A stretch of 64,000 nt of DNA. It comes from Halothermothrix orenii H 168 (GTDB taxonomy: Bacteria > Bacillota > Halanaerobiia > Halanaerobiales > Halothermotrichaceae). The stretch spans positions 2,078,501-2,142,500 of the forward strand of contig NC_011899.1 in the NCBI RefSeq assembly GCF_000020485.1, written 5' to 3'. Of the stretch, positions 28,300-40,000 are shown in pieces. Position 1 is the first letter of the stretch; each line of letters begins with the position of its first letter. The position numbers were made by a program, and so were the translations under genes. Under the pieces are notes generated by a model, which worked only from the letters and a program-made list of their open reading frames with translations, did not search any database and had not been told where the DNA came from.

Positions 28300-29091
28300 C
28301 TATTCATCGTAATCTATTATCCAGAGCTTTTCTTTGTACGGTTCTTCCCAGTTTGAGTCAAGTTTCTGTGTAACTAAAGTCTCGTAATTATTGTCATTGT
28401 CAATATCTTCATTAATTAGATTAAATATTTCCTTTTCTCCATTCTCCGTACACAGTTCTTCAATCCACGGCCTGTAAACAAATTTATCATCCTCCCAGTA
28501 AACAGCATACCCATTGGTGAATATTAATTTGGGGTAATTACCATCAGGGGGTAAAATATACCCGATTATTCTTGGACTGGAAAGCCAATCAAACTCAATA
28601 CTATATTTTTCTGTATTAGACACAGGACTATATATCTTATATGTTTTTTTTGGATAATCTTTTATTCTCTTTATCTTCTCTAATTCTTTATCATTGTTTA
28701 AATTAAAAGCAATAAAAGGATATTCATTACTACTATTTAAAATAGGTAGTACTTCTTTCTCTGGCTTTGATAGTATTACTTCATTATTTTTTACTTCTAT
28801 TTTGTTCCATGTTGTTCTATCAACTTTTACATAAACCCCTTTATTTTCTATCTCCGTAAATTTTTTTAATAAATACTCATCATATTTATATTCACATTCC
28901 CATTTCTTTACTAACTTCCCCTGCTGTTCTCCCAGTACAAACAAATAGCTTGTGGTTAATTTGTCTACCTGAATTAACAGGTTATTTTTTATCTCAATCA
29001 TATCAACTACATCTCTGGTTTCCTCTTCCCAGATAAGATTTAAGTTTGCCTTATCTTCTTTTATATACAAAAATGTCTCCAAGTTCTGCAC
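28300..29091 (-). CDS. C-terminal part of a frameshifted exported protein of unknown function
   Basis: This 263-residue reading frame opens at a GTG inside the end of the upstream frame and has no ribosome site of its own. The first residues (YIKEDKANLNLIWEEETRDVV) continue the upstream protein if one base of the AAAA run near 29057 is removed. The sequence is rich in aromatic and charged residues, with repeated LIF-, WEEE- and D.DND..YETLV segments like beta-propeller or VCBS-type repeats. I do not recognise a function. The joined protein would have about 382 residues. Confidence 0.55.
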   Translation of the reverse strand: MQNLETFLYIKEDKANLNLIWEEETRDVVDMIEIKNNLLIQVDKLTTSYLFVLGEQQGKLVKKWECEYKYDEYLLKKFTEIENKGVYVKVDRTTWNKIEVKNNEVILSKPEKEVLPILNSSNEYPFIAFNLNNDKELEKIKRIKDYPKKTYKIYSPVSNTEKYSIEFDWLSSPRIIGYILPPDGNYPKLIFTNGYAVYWEDDKFVYRPWIEELCTENGEKEIFNLINEDIDNDNNYETLVTQKLDSNWEEPYKEKLWIIDYDE

Positions 29092-29449
29092 CCTGTGACC
29101 TTACCAGGACCAATTCATCCTGTCCATCTCTATTAAAATCTATAAATATTGCCCCTAAATATGGGTATTCCCCTAAACCTTTAGGTATATGGCTGTAATT
29201 TAATTTTAATTTCTGGAATTTTTTATTTTTTATGCTATACAGATTTAATGTAAATTTATCTGGTATAAAATCTGTTAGTTTTTCTGCTAACTCTATAGTT
29301 ACCAATAAATTAATATCATTATATTTTCCTGTAGCAAAATTGCCAGAATTAGAAAAAAAAGTTTTCGACTTTAAATTAATTGCCTCTATAGAACATGATA
29401 TTGCAAAAAGAGATATAATCATCAAAAATATGATTAATTTCTTTTTCAT
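29051..29449 (-). CDS. N-terminal part of a frameshifted probable lipoprotein
   Basis: This 132-residue frame has a clear export signal (KKKLIIFLMIISLFAISC) with a plausible lipobox cysteine at residue 19. A calcium-loop-like FIDFNRDGQDELVLV follows, as in FG-GAP/VCBS repeats. It ends abruptly at YKRR-stop, and the next frame continues the same pattern after a one-base slip in an A run. I read the two as one gene that is mutated, mis-sequenced or slips during expression. It stands alone between the envelope cluster terminator and the methionine operon. Its role is unknown. Confidence 0.6.
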   Translation of the reverse strand: MKKKLIIFLMIISLFAISCSIEAINLKSKTFFSNSGNFATGKYNDINLLVTIELAEKLTDFIPDKFTLNLYSIKNKKFQKLKLNYSHIPKGLGEYPYLGAIFIDFNRDGQDELVLVRSQGAELGDIFVYKRR

Positions 29450-29732: not shown

Positions 29733-32447
29733 TTAAAACGAATGACCAAATCCCATATTAAAAGTAGTCTGGCGGTCTATCCTGTCAAAACCAAGGTCCG
29801 CCCTAACAGGTCCCAGAGGAGTGTAAATAGCAACACCAAGGCCACCATCAACCTCCCAGTTTATCGTGGAAAAATCTTCGCTGACCGGAATTATCTTTCC
29901 GCCATCTACAAAGATAATTGCCGATACCAGCTCATTTAAAAGAGGATGATGGTATTCAACACTGGTTGATAGATAACGGGTTCCAGCCCTGTCATAACTT
30001 TGTCCCCTCAGGGGAATACTGCTAAAACCTCCTCCTTTAAACTGGTAGTTTAAGGGGGTGTTGCTGCTGGAAAGCCCTCCGTTAAAAGAAAATATAAGTC
30101 TTCCCTGACCGGCCTTTTTTTCAATGTGCCATTTAAATTTTGAACGAACGAAATCAGGAAATCCTTCCCCGGGGGAATAAGCATAATCAAGATGGACTAT
30201 TAAATTTCCCACCTCTTCCAGAGATAGTGTAATCCCCGGGATTAAATACTTCTGTTCTATAGGAGAGGCATCTTCTTTTTTATAATTTTGTTCCTGATAA
30301 CCTAATGAATATTCCACCTTCCGGTAAGGGGCGGGAGTATTGCTAAAATTCAAACTGGTTTTAAAACCTTTTTCCGAAAAACTAATATTATTAAATTCCT
30401 CCCGCCTGGTGTAATTTATATATTCACAGGATGTTACCCAGCCCTGTCGTGCCGTATAATCAAAACCGACAAGCCACCAGGGTTCAGCCGACCAGTTAAC
30501 CCCTACAAAGGGACTCAATCCATTGCCTAATGGATTTCTCAACCTCTGGGTAAACTGACTGGAAGCCAGATTGATTGTCTTAAAGATAACAAACTCTCCC
30601 GGATGGATCATAAAGGGATTAGAATCATGGACCCTGATCACAACACTAACTTTGTTCCCCTCTATAACCTTATCTTCAACTTTGAGGTTAAGGGGATTAA
30701 AGATGTTCATATGATATAACCGCTGTTCAGTTAGATCCTTAATCTCCCTGGTCCAGGGAGCCCCAATCCTGAAAGGTAATTGACTGGTTATAAGCCCCTG
30801 ATTGCTTCTGGTCAAACCAATTATTTTAATATCACCAACGACATATGACTTCTCTCCATAATCGAGATTATTCCTCTCATAATCAATGGCCCTTGCCACC
30901 AGCGTTTTCCGGTGGTCATATTCCCTGAGTTTGTTATAATAAAACTCAGCCCTCCCTTTATCCTTTAAACCATCCCGGTATATTACATATATTTTATAAA
31001 GAGATTTGACCCTGATGTTTTCATGAACATCCATGGTGAGCATTTTCTCATAAAGATCTATAGCTTCTCTATAACGGGCGGTCCGCGGTCGGGCCAGGGA
31101 TTCAGCCAGCCATTCCAGGTAATAGACTTTATTAGATTTTTTTAGTACCTGTAATGCTTCCTGTTCTTCTGGTCCGGGGTCAGAAAGTCCTCCCCGGGAA
31201 CTGTTTTCAAATATATAGAGGCGAGCAAAGGCTTTTTCTTCATCACTTAATCTATAGTGCCATGTTTTCCCCTCAACGACAGCTATAACTGGCCTGAAGA
31301 CATAATAACTTTCCGGTTTAAAAGATAGATTAAAGACAGCCCTTTTCTGGTCAGGGGAAAAGACATATTTTTTATATGTAAGTTCACCATCTTTTTCCAG
31401 ACAAACCTGGACCGGTGAGGGTTTATTAATCCTTTTATCCAGAGTTATCATGACCTGATATCCTTTTGCCTTTTTCAGAACTTTTGCCGAGACAGGGACT
31501 TCAAACATATTAAGCCTTTTGCCCTGGTAGATGGAATCAAAATAATTATTTAAAACAGCCCTTACCTGCCTGCTTTGAAAATAATAATAACCAAAATGGT
31601 TTGCATCGAAATAATATAATTGTTTATTATGACCTGGAATTTTATTATATATATCGAAGGCCATTAACTTAAAAGGCGGATGGTCTAGCTTACCTGACAT
31701 TATTAAAACAGGAACCCTGATATCAGATACAAGCTTTTCCAGGTTATAGTCAGAAAAAAAGCCGTCCAGTCTTTTATCAGCCACCCCGATAAAGTTCCGG
31801 AAAATCCAGGGGAAGGCATAATTATCACCAAATCTATACTCCCTCACCAGCCTCATATAGTCTGAAAAAGGGGAGGCAGAAATAATACCATCAATTAACC
31901 CTTCCTGATCCCGGGCAGCAGCCAGTAAAACACTATATCCCCCCAGACTGTGACCGACCACTATAGTGGGAATATCTGGAGAGAGTCTCTCCAGATATTT
32001 TACTGCACCCAGGATATCATTTGAATAGTCGTTAAAACCGTTAAACCTGTGATCCAAACCTCCCCATCCAGCCAGGTCTATAGTCATTTCATTAAACTTA
32101 TAACGGGAACTATTTTCAATATAATGTTTAAGAAAAACACCATGAAAATAATAAGACTTTCCCGAGCGGCCGTATCCATGGACAAAAATAACATTAAAAT
32201 GGGGAGAATCTACAGTCCTTAAAAATGCACTGACCCTTTTTTCTCCCCCGTAGTCCGGAAAGGTAACCTCACCCCAGCCCCTTTCAGGAATATCCCTAAC
32301 TGTATAATCTGCTGGTGTCTTATTAAAGTAATCATTAATAATACTCTCAAATATACCTGCCTCACAGCGGTCACTTAAAAAACCTGAAAGTAAAATTATG
32401 GTCAAAAAAAAGAATATTAAACCCCTGGCCAGGTTAGTTTTTCTCAT
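29733..32447 (-). CDS. Alpha/beta-hydrolase fused to POTRA and Omp85-type outer-membrane barrel
   Basis: This 904-residue protein appears to join an enzyme to an outer-membrane barrel. A signal peptide covers 1-30. An alpha/beta-hydrolase spans about 60-305, with the triad Ser167 (GHSLGG), Asp255 (GKLDHP) and His284 (DANHFG) and the oxyanion motif HGYGRSG. A beta-rich segment (about 315-405) and TPR-like helices (about 425-520) follow. One POTRA-like domain lies at about 535-608 (VVGDIKIIGLTRSNQGLI). The barrel at about 620-904 has the Omp85 loop-6 type motif PLRGQ (812-816), the late strand PLGPVRADLGF and a terminal Phe. Patatin-POTRA-barrel fusions are known, but I know of no described alpha/beta-hydrolase version. 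Confidence 0.85.
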   Translation of the reverse strand: MRKTNLARGLIFFFLTIILLSGFLSDRCEAGIFESIINDYFNKTPADYTVRDIPERGWGEVTFPDYGGEKRVSAFLRTVDSPHFNVIFVHGYGRSGKSYYFHGVFLKHYIENSSRYKFNEMTIDLAGWGGLDHRFNGFNDYSNDILGAVKYLERLSPDIPTIVVGHSLGGYSVLLAAARDQEGLIDGIISASPFSDYMRLVREYRFGDNYAFPWIFRNFIGVADKRLDGFFSDYNLEKLVSDIRVPVLIMSGKLDHPPFKLMAFDIYNKIPGHNKQLYYFDANHFGYYYFQSRQVRAVLNNYFDSIYQGKRLNMFEVPVSAKVLKKAKGYQVMITLDKRINKPSPVQVCLEKDGELTYKKYVFSPDQKRAVFNLSFKPESYYVFRPVIAVVEGKTWHYRLSDEEKAFARLYIFENSSRGGLSDPGPEEQEALQVLKKSNKVYYLEWLAESLARPRTARYREAIDLYEKMLTMDVHENIRVKSLYKIYVIYRDGLKDKGRAEFYYNKLREYDHRKTLVARAIDYERNNLDYGEKSYVVGDIKIIGLTRSNQGLITSQLPFRIGAPWTREIKDLTEQRLYHMNIFNPLNLKVEDKVIEGNKVSVVIRVHDSNPFMIHPGEFVIFKTINLASSQFTQRLRNPLGNGLSPFVGVNWSAEPWWLVGFDYTARQGWVTSCEYINYTRREEFNNISFSEKGFKTSLNFSNTPAPYRKVEYSLGYQEQNYKKEDASPIEQKYLIPGITLSLEEVGNLIVHLDYAYSPGEGFPDFVRSKFKWHIEKKAGQGRLIFSFNGGLSSSNTPLNYQFKGGGFSSIPLRGQSYDRAGTRYLSTSVEYHHPLLNELVSAIIFVDGGKIIPVSEDFSTINWEVDGGLGVAIYTPLGPVRADLGFDRIDRQTTFNMGFGHSF

Positions 32448-32586
32448 AATAATCCCTACCTTCTGTAACCATTTTCCAATATATTACCATAAATCAGGGA
32501 TTTAATCAATTAAGTGATTTTTATACTAAATTTGTGAGCCCGGTTTACGACCAGAAGAATCAATTATAAAAGAATTTATTATTATG

Positions 32587-33540
32587 TTAATAACTAAAAC
32601 TGACAAAAAACATGGTCTGCCACTCCCCTTTATCGGTTACAAACTCCTCAAGACGATATTCTACCTGCCCCATGGCCCAGACCAGACCCAGGCCCCCACT
32701 GGTATGTAATTTAAAATCCTTCACCGATTCATCCGCAGAAATCACATCACCGGTCCGGACAAAGACCGAACCATTCATCAGGGCCAGAAAGGGGTTATCA
32801 CTGTAAGGATAGATTTGAAACTGCCTTTCCAGAAAGAGGCTGACCAGCCTGTTTCCCTTTTCATTTTCATACCCAGTGACATAAGAGGACAGATTATAAC
32901 AGGGTTCTATCCGGGATGAGGAGTTAATATAACCAAATCTGGGTACTATCCTGTACTCCCCTAGTTTAACCGGCAGGGTCAGGTTTGATATATAGTAACT
33001 ATCACCCTCTGTTATATCCTGACCTGAAGTTACATTGAAATAAAACTTTATTTCATTAAGGACATCATAGTGAAGGTCTTTATAATAGCTAAGGTAGGCA
33101 AAACGGGTCTTTATTTCTTCATTAAAACTGGAACCGATTTGTCCCTGAAACAGCAAAAAGGCCAGGCCGTGTTCCGGTTCGATGGGATAAGATACCGCTG
33201 CCTTTACCCCCTTCTGGTATATATAACCAGGAAGGTTATTATTTAACCAGTAATGGTAATTCAGGTCAAAATAAAGTCCCTCCCATTCCGTCCGGTTACC
33301 TACCCTGTAATATACCTCATTATTACTATAATCATAAGCAGCCCCAAGGTAAGGATACTGGTCAGAAATTTTTTCTTCCAATCCCTGAAGATGATGGCTA
33401 TATTCCAGACCAACAATACTCCCTTCAAAGGGAAGAATCGGCTTGAATTTAGCCTTTACCTGATAACGAAAAGGGCCAACCCCTGCTGTTATTACTGTTA
33501 CCACAGTTAATATCAATAATATTTTAAGAAACCTTTTCAT
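32587..33540 (-). CDS. Probable outer-membrane beta-barrel protein
   Basis: A signal peptide covers about residues 1-30. The rest of the 317 residues alternate polar and hydrophobic positions with many tyrosines (YLGAAYDYSNNEVYYRVG, LYFDLNYHYWLNNN), as in a transmembrane barrel of perhaps 12-14 strands. The last strand ends in an aromatic (FFVSFSY), the usual recognition signal for the BAM machinery. I do not recognise a specific family. It is co-oriented with and next to another barrel gene and the Omp85 fusion. Confidence 0.75.
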   Translation of the reverse strand: MKRFLKILLILTVVTVITAGVGPFRYQVKAKFKPILPFEGSIVGLEYSHHLQGLEEKISDQYPYLGAAYDYSNNEVYYRVGNRTEWEGLYFDLNYHYWLNNNLPGYIYQKGVKAAVSYPIEPEHGLAFLLFQGQIGSSFNEEIKTRFAYLSYYKDLHYDVLNEIKFYFNVTSGQDITEGDSYYISNLTLPVKLGEYRIVPRFGYINSSSRIEPCYNLSSYVTGYENEKGNRLVSLFLERQFQIYPYSDNPFLALMNGSVFVRTGDVISADESVKDFKLHTSGGLGLVWAMGQVEYRLEEFVTDKGEWQTMFFVSFSY

Positions 33541-33556
33541 ACATATCCCTCACTTT

Positions 33557-33653
33557 CAATGATAGACTTAAGTTTAGACTAAATATAGGTTGGTGCATTC
33601 TTACCTGTCCCTGTCTTAATTATTCAATTATAGACTTAAGTCAGGACTAAATA
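33557..33653. repeat. Pair of 29-bp direct repeats between the two barrel genes
   Basis: Two copies (33557-33585 and 33625-33653) agree at 25 of 29 positions. The core is the palindrome GACTTAAGTC (33633-33642), with GACTTAAGTT in the other copy. The lower-strand stop codon of the 33647 gene lies inside the second copy. They could be binding sites, for example for the cluster's response regulator, or a small local duplication. Confidence 0.55.
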
Positions 33654-34699
33654 CTGATTTTTACCCTGAAGGTCAATTTCCAGTCGTGATAAACACCATA
33701 GCTCCCCTGATAATTATTTATCTCAAGCCCGGGGGTTATATTATCATCTCCAATATAATCCAGGCTTAAAGTACGAATTTCACCGTAATCACTCCAGTTT
33801 ACAACATCTCTTATCTGCCATTGCCAGTCTGACATAAGGTCTCCATTAATAAAATTGATCAGGATCTGATCATGCCCACTGCGGTCCCGGTACACTTCAC
33901 CCACCAGAATATGTCCTGAAGGCAGTGTGTATTTACCACCCACTAAGTATTGATAGGAAACGGTATCCCCGGGGTAACAGGAGAGATTGGCACCCACCTG
34001 GAGGGCAAACCCATTCAGGAAATCCCGTGAATAGCTCCCCCCTAGATTAATATTATCTACCTGGCCATTACTGCCTTCTCTGGTCTCATTGTCTTTCTTT
34101 AGATAAGACATTACTACTTTATAATCACTCTGGTTCATCAGTGAACCAACCCTGATCCAGCTTCCAGTATTAATATCTTTCCCATTTGCAATTTCATTTC
34201 CGTCTACCACCGCTGAACCAAAGGATAAATTGTAACGGAGACCCGGGAGATTAAATTCACCACCCCAGTAATTTCTGTCAGCCTTGAGGGGGTAGGTAGG
34301 GGAATAGCTAAAGCCTTCACCCCACCTCCAGTCTCTTTTGCCTGCTTCAAAGACCCCCGGTCCGGCAAAACCACTTATGGTTATTTCTTCAAAGTCAGCC
34401 CTGAACTTCTGCCAGTCCCCCTTTACCCCGAGGCTATACTGATAGTTCCCGACCAGCCCGCTAAAATCCAGTTGTATTTCAGTGGCAGCTTCTGTTATGG
34501 TGTCCTTCCGGGCCACTGGTCCCGGTGGGGTCACATGCCTAAAACTATATTCATTAACCAGGTCCATATTGAAGTGATAAGCCTTTACCTTACCGGTAAC
34601 AGGACTGCCATTTAAAATACCTGCCAGTATAAATAAGGTGCCAATAACAGGGAGAACCTTTTTTACCAGACCTTTTATCCCTTCCGTGGTTTTCTTCAT
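33647..34699 (-). CDS. Probable outer-membrane beta-barrel protein
   Basis: A 350-residue protein with a long N-terminal signal (hydrophobic core at about 17-30), then alternating amphipathic strands with glycine and aromatic turns (YQYSLGVKGDWQKFRADFEE, GGSYSRDFLNGFALQVGAN). It ends in YHDWKLTFRVKISI, a typical last strand though with Ile rather than Phe. No known family is recognised. It begins 12 bases after the LolA-like gene, so it may be a client or partner of that system. Confidence 0.72.
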   Translation of the reverse strand: MKKTTEGIKGLVKKVLPVIGTLFILAGILNGSPVTGKVKAYHFNMDLVNEYSFRHVTPPGPVARKDTITEAATEIQLDFSGLVGNYQYSLGVKGDWQKFRADFEEITISGFAGPGVFEAGKRDWRWGEGFSYSPTYPLKADRNYWGGEFNLPGLRYNLSFGSAVVDGNEIANGKDINTGSWIRVGSLMNQSDYKVVMSYLKKDNETREGSNGQVDNINLGGSYSRDFLNGFALQVGANLSCYPGDTVSYQYLVGGKYTLPSGHILVGEVYRDRSGHDQILINFINGDLMSDWQWQIRDVVNWSDYGEIRTLSLDYIGDDNITPGLEINNYQGSYGVYHDWKLTFRVKISI

Positions 34700-34711
34700 A
34701 ACTTCACCCCA

Positions 34712-35464
34712 CTATTCCCTTATTAATAACCTGAATTTATCCAGCGTCAGGGGCTGAAAAGCCTGCTCAGGTAAGTCCCCGGGTTTTACATCCTTAAAAA
34801 TAAGGACTGTCTTTCTATCACGTTCATATAGCAGATTTTTAACAGTTATGTCAGCCACTTCAATACCGGCCATTTCCCGGTGATTATGATAAATTAATTC
34901 CTTTAAAGGCTCTCCATTGACCCCTTTGAGGATGACCCGCTCAATCTGTAAGCTGTCCCCGGAAACATAAAGGTCGGCCATCTGATATGCTGTTTTACTG
35001 TCCCTGGCCTTAAGTTTTAAAATAAAATGTTCCTTTTCTTCCTCCATACCCAGCGGTTTATACTCCCGGTAATAATCTATTCCCATTGTCTCTGCAATAC
35101 CGGCTTCACCGAAAAGCTTTTGCCGCGGTGATATTCTAATCGGTCTTCTAAGACCCTCCTGGTACTTCCAGGTATTATGGCCTACCACCAGATAACGGTC
35201 ATTAACAAACCTCTCAGGTGCCAGAAATGTGGCAATAGACCTTTTACTATCATATATATAGACCCGGACCCGGGCCTGATGGCTATCTTCCCCTTCATAG
35301 GTAATAACCTCAAAGTCCATGATACACGACCATTCCAGGTTCATTTTCTTATCAAGATTTAAAAGGATCTCTTCAGGGGTTAAAGACAGGGCCTCGACCG
35401 GTAAAGCTCCCCAGATTAATATTCCCATCAAAATAAACAGGGTAGTTCCAGTTATTTTTTTCAT
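34712..35464 (-). CDS. LolA-like outer-membrane lipoprotein-sorting protein
   Basis: A signal peptide (1-25) is followed by a 225-residue domain of the LolA/LolB-like fold (COG2834 type). It begins with LTPEEILLNLDKKM, has a run of antiparallel strands (MDFEVITYEG, ARVRVYIYDSKRS) and the conserved GHNTWKYQEGLRRPIRI. In Proteobacteria LolA carries lipoproteins across the periplasm. Proteins of this subtype are often encoded next to MacB/LolE-like exporters. It lies 12 bases after the FtsX-type permease gene, which supports that pairing here. Its cargo is unknown. Confidence 0.82.
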   Translation of the reverse strand: MKKITGTTLFILMGILIWGALPVEALSLTPEEILLNLDKKMNLEWSCIMDFEVITYEGEDSHQARVRVYIYDSKRSIATFLAPERFVNDRYLVVGHNTWKYQEGLRRPIRISPRQKLFGEAGIAETMGIDYYREYKPLGMEEEKEHFILKLKARDSKTAYQMADLYVSGDSLQIERVILKGVNGEPLKELIYHNHREMAGIEVADITVKNLLYERDRKTVLIFKDVKPGDLPEQAFQPLTLDKFRLLIRE

Positions 35465-35476
35465 ATAATTACCCTC

Positions 35477-36679
35477 CTATGAATATCTTAACATCTCAAC
35501 TACATTTATTCTTGAAGCCTTAAGGGCTGGATACAGGGCCGATAGAGTAGTCGAAACCAGAATAATAATAAAGGGAGTAACCCCATTACTGAAGGCCAGT
35601 TTAAAATAAAGGGGTACCGGCTCACTGACATTGGGAGGGGTATAGGTAATATAGGCATTATTTAAAGCATAGCCGATACCCCAGCCCAGGGTAAGTCCAA
35701 TAATACCCCCGATAATCCCCAGTATTAACGCCTCCTGTAGAAGCAGGGTAAAAACCTGTCTTCTCCGGGTTCCGATAGCCCTGATAGTCCCGATCTCATT
35801 CATCCTCTCAAAGAAGGCCATTGACATTATCTCCAGGATACTGAAAAAGACCAGTATAAATATTATGGTAGACAGGAAGAAAAAGATAAGGTCATACATG
35901 GCTTTTACCTGATGGTACATGGTCGCCAGGTCCAGCCAGGTTTTAATATCAACCTTAAGTCCCATCTCCTCAAATTTTTCTTCAAGGCGAGTCTTAACCT
36001 CTTCAGTCTTCCCTGTGTCTTCAAGGGAAACTATTACCTTATCAACCCCATCGGTATTTAATAGATTCTGGGCAAAAGACAGGGGCATCATAATAAAGTA
36101 ATTATCAGCTTCAGCACTATAGGTAGAAAAAGATCCCGAAACTTTAAGGCTACTGGCGCTGTAAGCCCCATCAAGGGTTGTAGCCATTAGAGAAAACCAG
36201 TCATCAACTGACAGATTCAGTTTTTCCATTACCCCTTTTCCCAGAAGAACCCTGGTCCTGTCTCCAGGAAAGAGGTTAAATCCTTCTTCAATCATTACAC
36301 TTTGATTAAAGCTATTACCGGGCTCAATTCCTGTTCCAGAAACAATGGTACTACCCTTTTCGGTCCCCAAAATTCCCGAAACCTTAAGTTCACTGGTAAA
36401 GTTATTTACATCATCAACAGACTCAAGGACCCCGGTGATAGCTTTATGGTATTCACCTGTAAGTAAAAGCCTTTCCTGTCCCGTATTTCCCCAGAATCCC
36501 TCCGGTGCTATCTGGAGGTGACCATTCCTGGATATGGACATCATTTTTAGTCCGTCATAGGTTGCAGCAAAATAACCCTTTACCAGAAAAAGTACCATTA
36601 CCCCGAAGATAATAATCCCCAGAATAAGGAGGGACCTCCTTTTATTCCGTAAAATATTACGCCATGCTATTTTTATCAT
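35477..36679 (-). CDS. LolCE/MacB-type ABC transporter permease
   Basis: This is a membrane subunit of a type VII (mechanotransmission) ABC system. The 400 residues have one N-terminal helix (about 15-35), a large extracytoplasmic domain (about 40-260) and three further helices within the FtsX domain (about 270-395), including the conserved NEIGTIRAIGTRRRQVFTLLLQEALILG. It overlaps the ATPase gene by 23 bases, so the two are translationally coupled. Such systems move lipoproteins or other envelope substrates, not sugars. Only one permease gene is present, implying a homodimer. Confidence 0.88.
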   Translation of the reverse strand: MIKIAWRNILRNKRRSLLILGIIIFGVMVLFLVKGYFAATYDGLKMMSISRNGHLQIAPEGFWGNTGQERLLLTGEYHKAITGVLESVDDVNNFTSELKVSGILGTEKGSTIVSGTGIEPGNSFNQSVMIEEGFNLFPGDRTRVLLGKGVMEKLNLSVDDWFSLMATTLDGAYSASSLKVSGSFSTYSAEADNYFIMMPLSFAQNLLNTDGVDKVIVSLEDTGKTEEVKTRLEEKFEEMGLKVDIKTWLDLATMYHQVKAMYDLIFFFLSTIIFILVFFSILEIMSMAFFERMNEIGTIRAIGTRRRQVFTLLLQEALILGIIGGIIGLTLGWGIGYALNNAYITYTPPNVSEPVPLYFKLAFSNGVTPFIIILVSTTLSALYPALKASRINVVEMLRYS

Positions 36680-37355
36680 AATTATTCACCTCTAACCTGC
36701 CATCCCTGATTTTAATTAACTTCCTGGCGTATTGATTTATTGAAAGGTCATGGGTTACTATTACAAAGGAAACCTGAAAATCATGGTTTAAACGGTTCAT
36801 TAACTCTATTATTTTTCGACCGGTTCCGGTATCCAGATTACCGGTAGGCTCATCAGCCAGAACCACGTCAGGTTCAGTTACCAGGGCCCGGGCGATAGCC
36901 ACCCTCTGTTTCTGCCCCCCTGATAACTGTGAAGGCCGGCGGTCTGCCATATCGAGCAACCCCACCTGGTCGAGAATACAATCGACTCGCTTTTTTCTCT
37001 GAGATCTGTCAATTTTCTGTAATAAAAGCGGATACTCCACATTTTCCCGGGCCGTTAAAACAGGGATCAATTCAAAAGACTGGAACACCAACCCTATTTT
37101 ATTCCTTCTAATTAAGGTCCTTTTACTATCCTTTAACTCAGATAATGGCTTGCCGTCAATATAAACCTCTCCTTCGGTAGGCCGGTCAACACCGGATAAA
37201 ATATTTAATAAAGTTGTCTTCCCACTTCCCGAGGGGCCATTAATAACAATGAAATCACCTTTATTTATCTCCAGGTCTACCCCTTTGAGGGCATAGACCT
37301 TTTCTGCCTGAGTGGTATAGACCTTCTTGATACCCCGGGCCTTTAGAATGGTCAT
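36657..37355 (-). CDS. LolD/MacB-type ABC transporter ATP-binding protein
   Basis: This 232-residue ATPase drives the adjacent FtsX-type permease. It has Walker [10 protein letters not shown], the Q-loop [13 protein letters not shown], the signature [15 protein letters not shown], Walker [13 protein letters not shown] and the switch histidine in VTHD. The ADEPTGNLD form marks the LolD/MacB/FtsE group. It shares a four-base ATGA overlap with the TPR gene upstream. Confidence 0.92.
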
Positions 37356-38164
37356 TTTTCCTCCCCTTCCTGTTTTTTAATTGATTCCATAAGCCATCTG
37401 GCCCAGCCACTGCCAGGGTATATCTCAAGGGCCTTCTTTACATACCTCATGGCCGCAGAAGCCTCCCCCTTCTTTTTATGGGCAGTTGCCAGCCACATAT
37501 AGGAAATAAAATTATCAAACCTGTCATTACTCTCCAGAGCTTTTTGAAGGGTTTTAATCCCCTTATTGACATCACCACCACCGATTTCAGGGGCATTTAT
37601 GTAATAAATAGCCATGGTATTCAGGGCTCTATAATTTGTTCTATCAAGGCTCACCGCTTTCTGGGCCAGTTTTAGGGACTGGGGTCCTTTTGTCACGGCA
37701 AAAAGGGAACCCTTGTAATTCATAAGCCTCATATAGGCATCGGCCATAAGCCGGTAAGCATCACTGAAGTCAGATTTATTATCAATGGCTTTTCTGGCAA
37801 GCTGACTGGCCTTATCAAAAGATACAGCCGCCTCCCTTTGTTTACCTAAGGCTTCAGCAACCTCTCCCTGGAGGAACTTTAACTGTCCCTGCCAGTAATA
37901 TTTTTTATAGTTGTCTTCAGATGAAGATAGAATTTCTTCACAGTTATCAACGATCTTTTTTATTTCCTGATAACCCCCCTCACCATTGTAAAAAATATCC
38001 CGGGCCCTGACATATAACTTCTGACCCTTCTGTAGGGGAGACTCCTCTCCGGCCTGAACCATAGAAGAAACTACCACCAGACTTAATCCCACCATAATAA
38101 CCATTGCCATAAACTTTAATGGCCAAATATTCTTAATGTTGCTTCTATTAAATCTCTTTAACAT
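37352..38164 (-). CDS. TPR-repeat exported or membrane-anchored protein
   Basis: After a hydrophobic segment (about residues 15-37) the protein consists of helical TPR-like repeats (YWQGQLKFLQGEVAEALGKQREAAVSF, NTMAIYYINAPEIGG, MWLATAHKKKGEASAAMRYVKKALEI). It is probably held in or across the inner membrane and acts as a scaffold for the ABC/LolA-like system. I chose the ATG at 38162-38164 because AAGGAGG is 8 bases upstream of it. An ATG three codons earlier directly abuts that site. The start codons are coupled with the neighbouring genes. Confidence 0.78.
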   Translation of the reverse strand: MLKRFNRSNIKNIWPLKFMAMVIMVGLSLVVVSSMVQAGEESPLQKGQKLYVRARDIFYNGEGGYQEIKKIVDNCEEILSSSEDNYKKYYWQGQLKFLQGEVAEALGKQREAAVSFDKASQLARKAIDNKSDFSDAYRLMADAYMRLMNYKGSLFAVTKGPQSLKLAQKAVSLDRTNYRALNTMAIYYINAPEIGGGDVNKGIKTLQKALESNDRFDNFISYMWLATAHKKKGEASAAMRYVKKALEIYPGSGWARWLMESIKKQEGEEK

Positions 38165-38183
38165 TTTCCTCATCCTCCTTATT

Positions 38184-39242
38184 TTAATGAATAGAAACTT
38201 TTACAGTGGTTCCCTGTCCCGGTTGTGACTCTATATCAAAGTCACCACCAACATCGTTGACCCTGTCCTTCATTCCCGAAATCCCAAACCGGCCACTGCC
38301 TGCCTTAACTCTGCCAACATTAAACCCTTTCCCATTATCCTTTATAGCCATTGTAATTCCATTATTGCCTATACCAAGGGTTATGCTGACCTTATCGGCA
38401 TCAGCATGTTTTACAATATTATTTAGGGCCTCCTGTGCTACCCGGTATAAGGCAAGCTGGACTTCACTCTCAACCCTGTTTTCATTACCATTAAGATGTG
38501 TGGTGATTTTCAGATTATAACGGTTTCTGTACAACTCAACCAGGCTTTCCAGGGCTTCAAAAAAATCTTTCTCCCTGAGGTGGACCGGTTTTAGTTCATA
38601 GATCATAAGCCTCATTTCGGTCTGGACCTCCTGGACCATCTTCTTCAAATCCTCAACTGTCTTTCGAACCCTATCATGGTCCCCCTCATCAATTAAAACC
38701 TCCAGGGTATTAAGATTTAAGTTGATTCCAAAAAGGTTCTGGGATACAGAATCATGGAGTTCCCGGGCAATCCTGTTTCTTTCTTCAATAATGGCCAGTT
38801 TTTTATTTTCCTTTTCAAGTTCAAGTTTCTCCTGTTGTTGTTCGAGCACATAAAAAAACAAGGAGATCATAACCGAACCAATCCCTACCCCCAGACTTAT
38901 ATATAAATTGAAACTAAAAGGAACTCCAATTAAGGGAAAGAAAATAAGTCCACACAAATAAAATACCAGACTACTTGCCAGGTAGGTAATAAAACTCCGC
39001 CCCAGTACATTACTAATTACAGGTAGAGAAAAATTTGCAGCAATATAAATCACTGACTGACTGCTGATTGAAATTAAAAAACCAACAATGTACCCGAAAA
39101 TAACATAGATTATAAAGAGCAAAAATGGGTTGTCAGTTTTTGAAAAACCAGAAAATGAAAAGAAAAACATAAGTGATATCCCGATACCAATAATACCACT
39201 TTTAAAAGAATTCTTAGTTATAGCCAGAATACTTTTTCTCAT
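38184..39242 (-). CDS. Sensor histidine kinase, NarL/DesK-type (HisKA_3)
   Basis: This kinase senses through its membrane part: about four or five helices fill residues 15-135, and almost no extracytoplasmic domain is present, as in DesK/LiaS kinases that respond to membrane state. A short coiled coil leads to the dimerisation/phosphotransfer helix NRIARELHDSVSQN (phospho-His at about 163) and an ATPase domain with NNIVKHADA and DNGKGF motifs. I chose the ATG at 39240-39242 because AGGTGAT precedes it. A GTG three codons upstream overlaps the response-regulator stop. It is paired with the regulator directly upstream. Confidence 0.9.
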   Translation of the reverse strand: MRKSILAITKNSFKSGIIGIGISLMFFFSFSGFSKTDNPFLLFIIYVIFGYIVGFLISISSQSVIYIAANFSLPVISNVLGRSFITYLASSLVFYLCGLIFFPLIGVPFSFNLYISLGVGIGSVMISLFFYVLEQQQEKLELEKENKKLAIIEERNRIARELHDSVSQNLFGINLNLNTLEVLIDEGDHDRVRKTVEDLKKMVQEVQTEMRLMIYELKPVHLREKDFFEALESLVELYRNRYNLKITTHLNGNENRVESEVQLALYRVAQEALNNIVKHADADKVSITLGIGNNGITMAIKDNGKGFNVGRVKAGSGRFGISGMKDRVNDVGGDFDIESQPGQGTTVKVSIH

Positions 39243-39247
39243 TAATA

Positions 39248-39877
39248 TCACCTATCTACCAGATTATTTTCTATAGCCTTAATAACTGCCTGAGTCCGGT
39301 CTTTAACATCCAGTTTCTTTAAAATATTACTGACATGGGTTTTAACAGTAGTCTCAGATATGCACAGGGTTTTGGCTATATCACGGTTAGAATTACCCCT
39401 GACAAGGCACGCCAGGACTTCCTTCTCACGGGGTGTTAGTGGCTCTGTCTTACGTCCCTTCCGGGCTGCCCTTTTCATGATTTTTTTGGCAACACCAGGG
39501 GTTAAAACAGGTTCCCCCCGCCGGGCTGCCTTTATAGCCTCAACCAGTTTTTCGGGACGGGAATCCTTCATTACATAACTTAAGGCTCCGGCATCTATGG
39601 CCTCAATTACCTCATCCTCTTTATTAAAACTGGAAAGAATGATAACTTCAGTCCCGGGGTTTTTCTTTTTTATCTCCCTGGTAACTTCAATCCCGTTAAG
39701 CCCGGGAAGCCGCAGATCGACCACCGCCACCTCTGGATTTAATTTTGCAATTTCTTTAATGGCCTTTTCTCCATTACCTGATGTCCCAACAATTTCAATT
39801 CCCTCCCGGGTATTTAAATATGCTTTCAACCCCTGAAGGACAAATGGATGATCATCAACCAGGTATACCTGTATCAT
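39248..39877 (-). CDS. LuxR/NarL-family response regulator
   Basis: This is the DNA-binding partner of the adjacent kinase. The receiver domain (1-120) has the acidic pocket VDDHP and the phospho-Asp in VAVVDLRLPG at about residue 54. A LuxR-type helix-turn-helix (about 145-205: TPREKEVLACLVRGNSNRDIAKTLCISETTVKTH) follows. I chose the ATG at 39875-39877 (MIQVYLVDD), which is preceded by AAAGGGG. A longer in-frame version would add about 31 residues unlike the family. It heads the envelope cluster and probably controls it. Confidence 0.92.
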   Translation of the reverse strand: MIQVYLVDDHPFVLQGLKAYLNTREGIEIVGTSGNGEKAIKEIAKLNPEVAVVDLRLPGLNGIEVTREIKKKNPGTEVIILSSFNKEDEVIEAIDAGALSYVMKDSRPEKLVEAIKAARRGEPVLTPGVAKKIMKRAARKGRKTEPLTPREKEVLACLVRGNSNRDIAKTLCISETTVKTHVSNILKKLDVKDRTQAVIKAIENNLVDR

Positions 39878-40000
39878 ACAAACACCCCTTTTTGATAAAT
39901 AAACAATTACACAGTAAAAATTTATGAGATCAGCCTTTATAACAGGAAAAATTCTTTGAAAAAAAATCAATTGTAATACAGGCTGGAATAGAAAACCATA

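Follow-up and report, generated by a model that had tools for sequence, protein, structure and literature searches.

An exported alpha/beta-hydrolase joined to a POTRA domain and an Omp85 barrel in Halothermothrix orenii, within a single-POTRA Omp85 clade associated with different enzymes

Proteins that combine an enzyme with Omp85 are known chiefly through the patatin type, and what they are for is a matter of dispute. The type Vd proteins PlpD of Pseudomonas aeruginosa and FplA of Fusobacterium nucleatum consist of an N-terminal exported enzyme, one POTRA domain and a C-terminal Omp85 barrel, and these elements are shared by a protein encoded in a 64,000-nucleotide stretch of the genome of the halophilic bacterium Halothermothrix orenii H 168 (contig NC_011899.1, positions 2,078,501 to 2,142,500; the whole stretch is here called the window). 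This protein, named hydrolase-Omp85 below, also has a serine-dependent, lipolytic-type enzyme class in common with PlpD and FplA, but its enzyme is an alpha/beta-hydrolase with a Ser-Asp-His triad whereas theirs is a patatin with a Ser-Asp dyad, and it adds a beta-rich and a TPR-type segment and belongs to a distinct barrel clade in which the enzymes change. Judged by profile, the architecture is PlpD-like yet fails the defining domain of the patatin family: patatin PF01734 is absent from the Pfam matches of the 904-aa protein, and its enzyme matches are to alpha/beta-hydrolase families only. According to the accessible part of Heinz and Lithgow 2014, Metallo-Omp85 and WD40-Omp85 likewise have a non-POTRA module ahead of an Omp85 barrel, their enzyme or propeller modules differing from that of the window, and neither an alpha/beta-hydrolase nor a transglutaminase is among the ten subfamilies given in that part. 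TamA and BamA are the nearest relatives by profile, with homologous POTRA and barrel, but they have three to five POTRA domains while the window protein has one, carries an enzyme and falls in a separate clade; against the three POTRA domains by which TamA is recognised it again has one, and its NCBIfam TamA score is 28.7 bits (cut-off 625). TamB has been reported beside BamA in Halanaerobiales (PMC5007114). In a literature search no description was found of an alpha/beta-hydrolase or a transglutaminase fused to Omp85.

The coordinates given for the gene in the original prediction are correct, and the gene lies on the minus strand. The open reading frame (ORF) runs from an ATG start at 32447, preceded by the plausible ribosome-binding stretch AAGGTAGGG, to a TAA stop at 29733 and is free of stops over 904 codons, and the plus strand of this interval is riddled with stops. 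GC content is 0.402 for the gene and 0.395 for the window, third-position GC is alike across its three parts (0.35, 0.38 and 0.39), and the composition is gene-typical. The source genome is a single contig of 2,578,146 bases and belongs to Halanaerobiales, the order that it shares with Halanaerobium kushneri. The predicted product, all in one frame, opens with an export signal and continues with a hydrolase whose triad is complete, a TPR-type linker, a single POTRA and an Omp85 barrel of full length; a Cys in the signal peptide, as read from the sequence, has no lipobox.

The enzyme domain scored above the cut-offs of Pfam Hydrolase_4 (43.7 bits, cut-off 27, 2.6e-11) and Abhydrolase_6 (38.4 bits, cut-off 26.3, 2.8e-9). 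The triad Ser167/Asp255/His284, named in the original prediction, proved exact, being matched by Ser, Asp and His in 7/7 aligned alpha/beta-hydrolase homologues, and lipase or esterase activity of the predicted hydrolase is plausible from its fold. The TPR-like linker claimed there is also borne out, with seven helices in a model of residues 395-612 (mean pLDDT 75) and with TPR domains as the best PDB matches in VIA-align at Z up to 10.8, where Z below about 13 counts as weak for helical repeats. Pfam TPR matches in the linker were all sub-threshold, and a Foldseek search with the TPR-POTRA model had no hit under E 0.001, so the fold assignment is carried by the VIA-align re-alignment.

For the single POTRA-like domain Pfam alone stayed below its cut-off (15.1 vs 21.3 bits), but support came from the NCBIfam BamA match at residues 536-595, from profile-profile alignment with hhalign and from the model, in which residues 531-612 adopt a beta-alpha-alpha-beta-beta order and match a BamA POTRA at Z 9.8 with an rmsd of 2.2 over 77 residues. 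Pfam Omp85 PF01103 was matched at residues 783-904 with 36.8 bits (cut-off 24, 4.1e-9), and the barrel has the predicted PLRGQ motif at 812-816, aligned with LRGY of BamA, as well as the terminal Phe904. When residues 534-904 were compared with BamA of the same order by hhalign, the probability was 99.7% (E 1.4e-26, 363 columns) and the aligned region was the last POTRA and the entire barrel of BamA, with barrels close in length; a profile of the POTRA-barrel domain against PDB gave TamA at 4.7e-13 and BamA at 8.7e-11. By these profile searches the residues from about 535 to 904 fall inside the Omp85 superfamily, as had been expected, and residues 531-904 are taken here as a member of it.

Free-standing homologues of residues 531-904 are 384-431 aa long and have their own signal peptides. 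The name sOmp85 is used here for the single-POTRA Omp85 clade that includes residues 531-904, which in the tree stands apart from the BamA of the order at 100/100 support, deep branches inside the clade being unresolved. A BamA-type match was present in nearly every one of 38 Halanaerobiales genomes, sOmp85 in 4/38, and a canonical Omp85/BamA is encoded elsewhere in the H. orenii genome; by sequence comparison hydrolase-Omp85 is not orthologous to the essential BamA of the order. Since PMC5007114 reported one BamA homologue for each Halanaerobiales genome, the second Omp85 apparently received no mention in that study. In the order containing another Bacillota family (f30), sOmp85 was found in 9/17 genomes, and an evenly drawn sample of 398 phylum genomes gave no further sOmp85 at E 1e-25. 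Among the Bacillota sampled, the distribution is limited to some Halanaerobiales and this one other family. Pattern scans of a species-level genome collection gave no match with the single protein and one locus with a three-row alignment, the scan being insensitive and no evidence of rarity outside Bacillota; plasmid records gave no match.

Nine of 13 sOmp85s are fused to an exported enzyme or encoded directly after one, and three unrelated enzyme types are represented. Further search for the architecture of hydrolase-Omp85 returned the alpha/beta-hydrolase version from one species only, and the same order with a transglutaminase-like enzyme from two f30 genomes, L066:3187-5349 (720 aa) and L067:7744-9831 (695 aa). 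Both of these fusions are over the cut-off of Pfam PF01841 (6.7e-12 for L066 and 9.3e-12 for L067) and have Cys143/His180/Asp197 intact, and their enzyme half is the more conserved (79% vs 61% for the barrel half). In the other f30 subclade an exported C45 autoproteolytic acyltransferase/hydrolase of the Ntn type with a C-terminal TPR (NCBIfam 187 bits, cut-off 85) is encoded directly before sOmp85. The spacing of the two genes is 16-23 nt, or an overlap by 35, in five genomes (Table 1), and in the sixth genome of the subclade the contig starts within the TPR end of the C45 gene. The pair itself is conserved while the genes flanking it vary between genera. Apart from one distant 28% match, the C45 gene occurs in 6/6 genomes of the subclade and 0/11 others of that order, a coincidence with a chance of 1 in 12,376 if the genomes were independent, a figure that relatedness weakens. 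The C45 partner has a fold unrelated to that of the window's hydrolase and shares with it only the layout of an enzyme-TPR part followed by a POTRA-barrel part. The same enzyme-TPR-POTRA-barrel order is seen in the window fusion and in the two-gene form. On this evidence one chassis appears to have received a different enzyme on two or more occasions, either within a single chain or in the form of a gene pair; the number and direction of enzyme gains, from operon to fusion or the reverse, are not derivable from the sOmp85 tree. The original prediction of a non-patatin serine hydrolase in the enzyme-POTRA-Omp85 order in Bacillota is upheld and is widened by a chassis clade to which various enzymes are joined.

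In H. kushneri a gene lying 79 nt ahead of sOmp85 (L070:5339-8122) encodes a serine hydrolase of the beta-lactamase fold that has membrane helices at its C-terminus; it was considered as a fourth partner and was not counted because it is not conserved in the sister genome G015. An exported patatin near one of the C45-sOmp85 pairs (L050:2890-4629) was considered as a patatin-Omp85 and rejected, its C-terminal part having no Omp85 profile match; its C-terminal half is beta-rich and ends in Tyr, and it is perhaps another barrel type. Elsewhere a fragment with internal stops (G057:C42:337-552), which shares 65% identity with the C45 protein, represents a decayed second copy.

Table 1. Location of the hydrolase-Omp85 gene, its parts, its upstream neighbours and the C45-sOmp85 gene pairs (window positions unless a locus is named)
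Feature	Coordinates	Strand	Basis
Whole gene: exported alpha/beta-hydrolase - TPR-type linker - POTRA - Omp85 barrel, 904 aa	29733..32447	-	
Sec-type signal peptide, residues 1-30, hydrophobic stretch GLIFFFLTIILLSGFL	32358..32447	-	read from sequence
Alpha/beta-hydrolase domain, residues ~40-310	31518..32330	-	Pfam and homologue alignment
Nucleophile Ser167 in GHSLGG (GxSxG nucleophile elbow)	31947..31949	-	homologue alignment
Triad Asp255 in KLDHPP	31683..31685	-	homologue alignment
Triad His284 in NHFGYY	31596..31598	-	homologue alignment
Beta-rich segment, residues 311-395, possibly beta-sandwich	31263..31517	-	strands in low-confidence full-length model
TPR-type helical solenoid, residues 396-530	30858..31262	-	model pLDDT mostly 73-89
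Single POTRA, residues 531-612	30612..30857	-	NCBIfam, profile comparison, model
Omp85 barrel, residues 613-904	29736..30611	-	Pfam PF01103, profile-profile alignment to BamA
Promoter-like site TTAACA-16-TATAAT, 11/12, ~115 nt ahead of ATG	32563..32590	-	
317-aa exported protein, family-less, beta-barrel-like, just upstream	32587..33540	-	by inspection
Upstream group: TPR protein, ABC ATPase, LolCE-like permease, LolA_like protein, 350-aa exported protein	33647..38173	-	
C45-TPR then sOmp85 gene pairs	L047:608-3629, L048:1848-4857, L049:7431-10516, L050:5431-8440, L069:4786-7795		

The reading favoured here, and held to be somewhat more probable than its alternatives taken together, is that the protein is a periplasmic hydrolase anchored in the outer membrane by a barrel of the sOmp85 clade, which serves as a platform for exported enzymes. 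For function, topology and substrate we infer the following: the protein would be exported by Sec and its barrel inserted in the outer membrane by BAM, and the hydrolase would remain periplasmic, docked via the TPR/POTRA region near the inner leaflet, where its targets may be acyl linkages or further kinds of ester in membrane lipids, in lipoproteins or in incoming substrates. In relatives the place of the hydrolase is taken by the transglutaminase-like domain in the same chain or by the C45 Ntn-hydrolase-TPR from the adjacent gene. Such a position has precedent in PlpD, whose patatin stays periplasmic and against the POTRA, and FplA was undetected on the surface (PMC11116518). The setting in a Firmicute is less odd than the original prediction implied, because Halanaerobiales are diderm Bacillota with a lipopolysaccharide (LPS) outer membrane (PMC5007114). 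They are reported to be without Mla (PMC10665443), and as no PldA family member was found on searching the H. orenii genome, outer-membrane lipid clean-up would be an open slot in these bacteria. That a tethered lipid hydrolase fills this Mla/PldA gap is conjecture, and a lipoprotein or an ester, either of a glycan or imported, could as likely be the substrate. More tentatively, and as something just short of probable, sOmp85 may be an unrecognised Omp85 subfamily that acts as an interchangeable docking platform for three unrelated periplasmic enzyme types, via fusion or a TPR-POTRA two-gene complex, in envelope-lipid or remodelling roles in Bacillota diderms, some of them without Mla and PldA.

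Several observations weigh against the favoured reading and the platform proposed with it. The alpha/beta-hydrolase fusion was seen in one species only, four sOmp85s (G015, G031, G331 and H. kushneri) are without a fused enzyme, and the Halanaerobium-group genome G010 has a decayed sOmp85 remnant that is interrupted by a stop and has lost a large internal part (L056:9030-9284). No sequence homology was detectable between the TPR parts of the window fusion and of the C45 protein, and the parallel between fusion and gene pair is thus one of layout only. The full-length AlphaFold model, made with two sequences, has a mean pLDDT of 35 and models neither the barrel nor the hydrolase-POTRA contact with confidence, so that the predicted barrel strand count (16 in the Omp85 superfamily) rests on homology. 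Alpha/beta-hydrolases, moreover, cut many bond types.

In the gene neighbourhood, the 317-aa protein encoded just upstream of hydrolase-Omp85 had no confident Pfam or NCBIfam match, and none of the order's 37 further genomes has a homologue. In the group further upstream the LolCE-like permease scored 97.8 bits, which is below the equivalog cut-off, the LolA_like protein was matched at 6.4e-18, and the 350-aa exported protein is family-less and barrel-like in appearance; a two-component pair also lies upstream on the same strand, and with it the group spans 33647-39970. The group is conserved as far as the 350-aa protein in G005 (L110), there without hydrolase-Omp85 and with the two-component genes oppositely oriented, which shows the fusion to adjoin the Lol-like group and not to be an obligate part of it. 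With gaps of 106 and 139 nt in the same-strand run leading to the hydrolase-Omp85 gene, and with the promoter-like site, co-transcription with the upstream genes is no more than possible; promoter-like matches in the scan numbered 19 where 16 were expected, so the single site is not above chance overall. At 28300-29449 of the window two minus-strand ORFs of 132 and 263 aa overlap each other and resemble one exported protein split by a frameshift.

This neighbourhood bears on the best surviving alternative, in which the protein is an outer-membrane assembly factor of TamA/BamA type with an added regulatory or quality-control enzyme, its barrel being an insertase for few clients. TamA and BamA are the nearest solved relatives, the gene comes after two exported barrel-like proteins and the LolCE/LolA-like group, and the combination of TPR and POTRA is reminiscent of BamD docking on BamA. 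However, a separate BamA is present in nearly all genomes of the order while sOmp85 is sporadic, there is only one POTRA, and the solo sOmp85s have no consistent neighbours, and we consider this role unlikely. Ranked next, and also doubtful, is a translocation similar to two-partner secretion, in which sOmp85 would be a dedicated exporter and the adjacent or fused enzyme its cargo. Translocators do exist among Omp85 proteins, and the position of the C45-TPR gene, which immediately precedes sOmp85 in six genomes, resembles the TpsA/TpsB pairing, but TpsA cargoes bear a TPS domain and a beta-helix, neither of which was matched in the sOmp85-associated enzymes, and the fusions place the enzyme on the periplasmic side of the POTRA.

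Below this, and improbable, stands self-secretion in the sense first proposed for type Vd, by which the hydrolase would pass through the outer membrane by means of its attached barrel and reach the surface or the medium, as the original prediction had offered beside tethering. The domain order is shared with PlpD, which was originally described as an autotransporter (PMC4104836), and an exoenzyme would presumably suit a fermentative anaerobe; however, no sequence feature points to export across the outer membrane, a folded hydrolase with a TPR solenoid would be poor cargo for an Omp85 pore, and the periplasmic PlpD patatin and undetected FplA reported in PMC11116518 make self-secretion the weaker reading compared with a tethered enzyme. 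Finally, an annotation or sequencing artefact joining two genes is most improbable and already largely refuted, because although homologues of the barrel half are encoded separately and have signal peptides themselves, the single stop-free frame is coding throughout, no second signal peptide precedes the POTRA, the linker is a folded TPR and independent transglutaminase fusions have the same joint.

The main surprise lies in the constant barrel and changing enzyme across the clade, more than in the fusion of one species. Related barrels with different enzymes, fused or adjacent, suggest a reusable outer-membrane platform for enzymes, and a clade that keeps its barrel while the enzyme fold changes separates the purpose of the barrel from the role of the enzyme. 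The operon form would make the contact between enzyme and barrel accessible to simple co-purification, and the clade offers a definite candidate for maintenance of the outer membrane in Halanaerobiales, which lack Mla.
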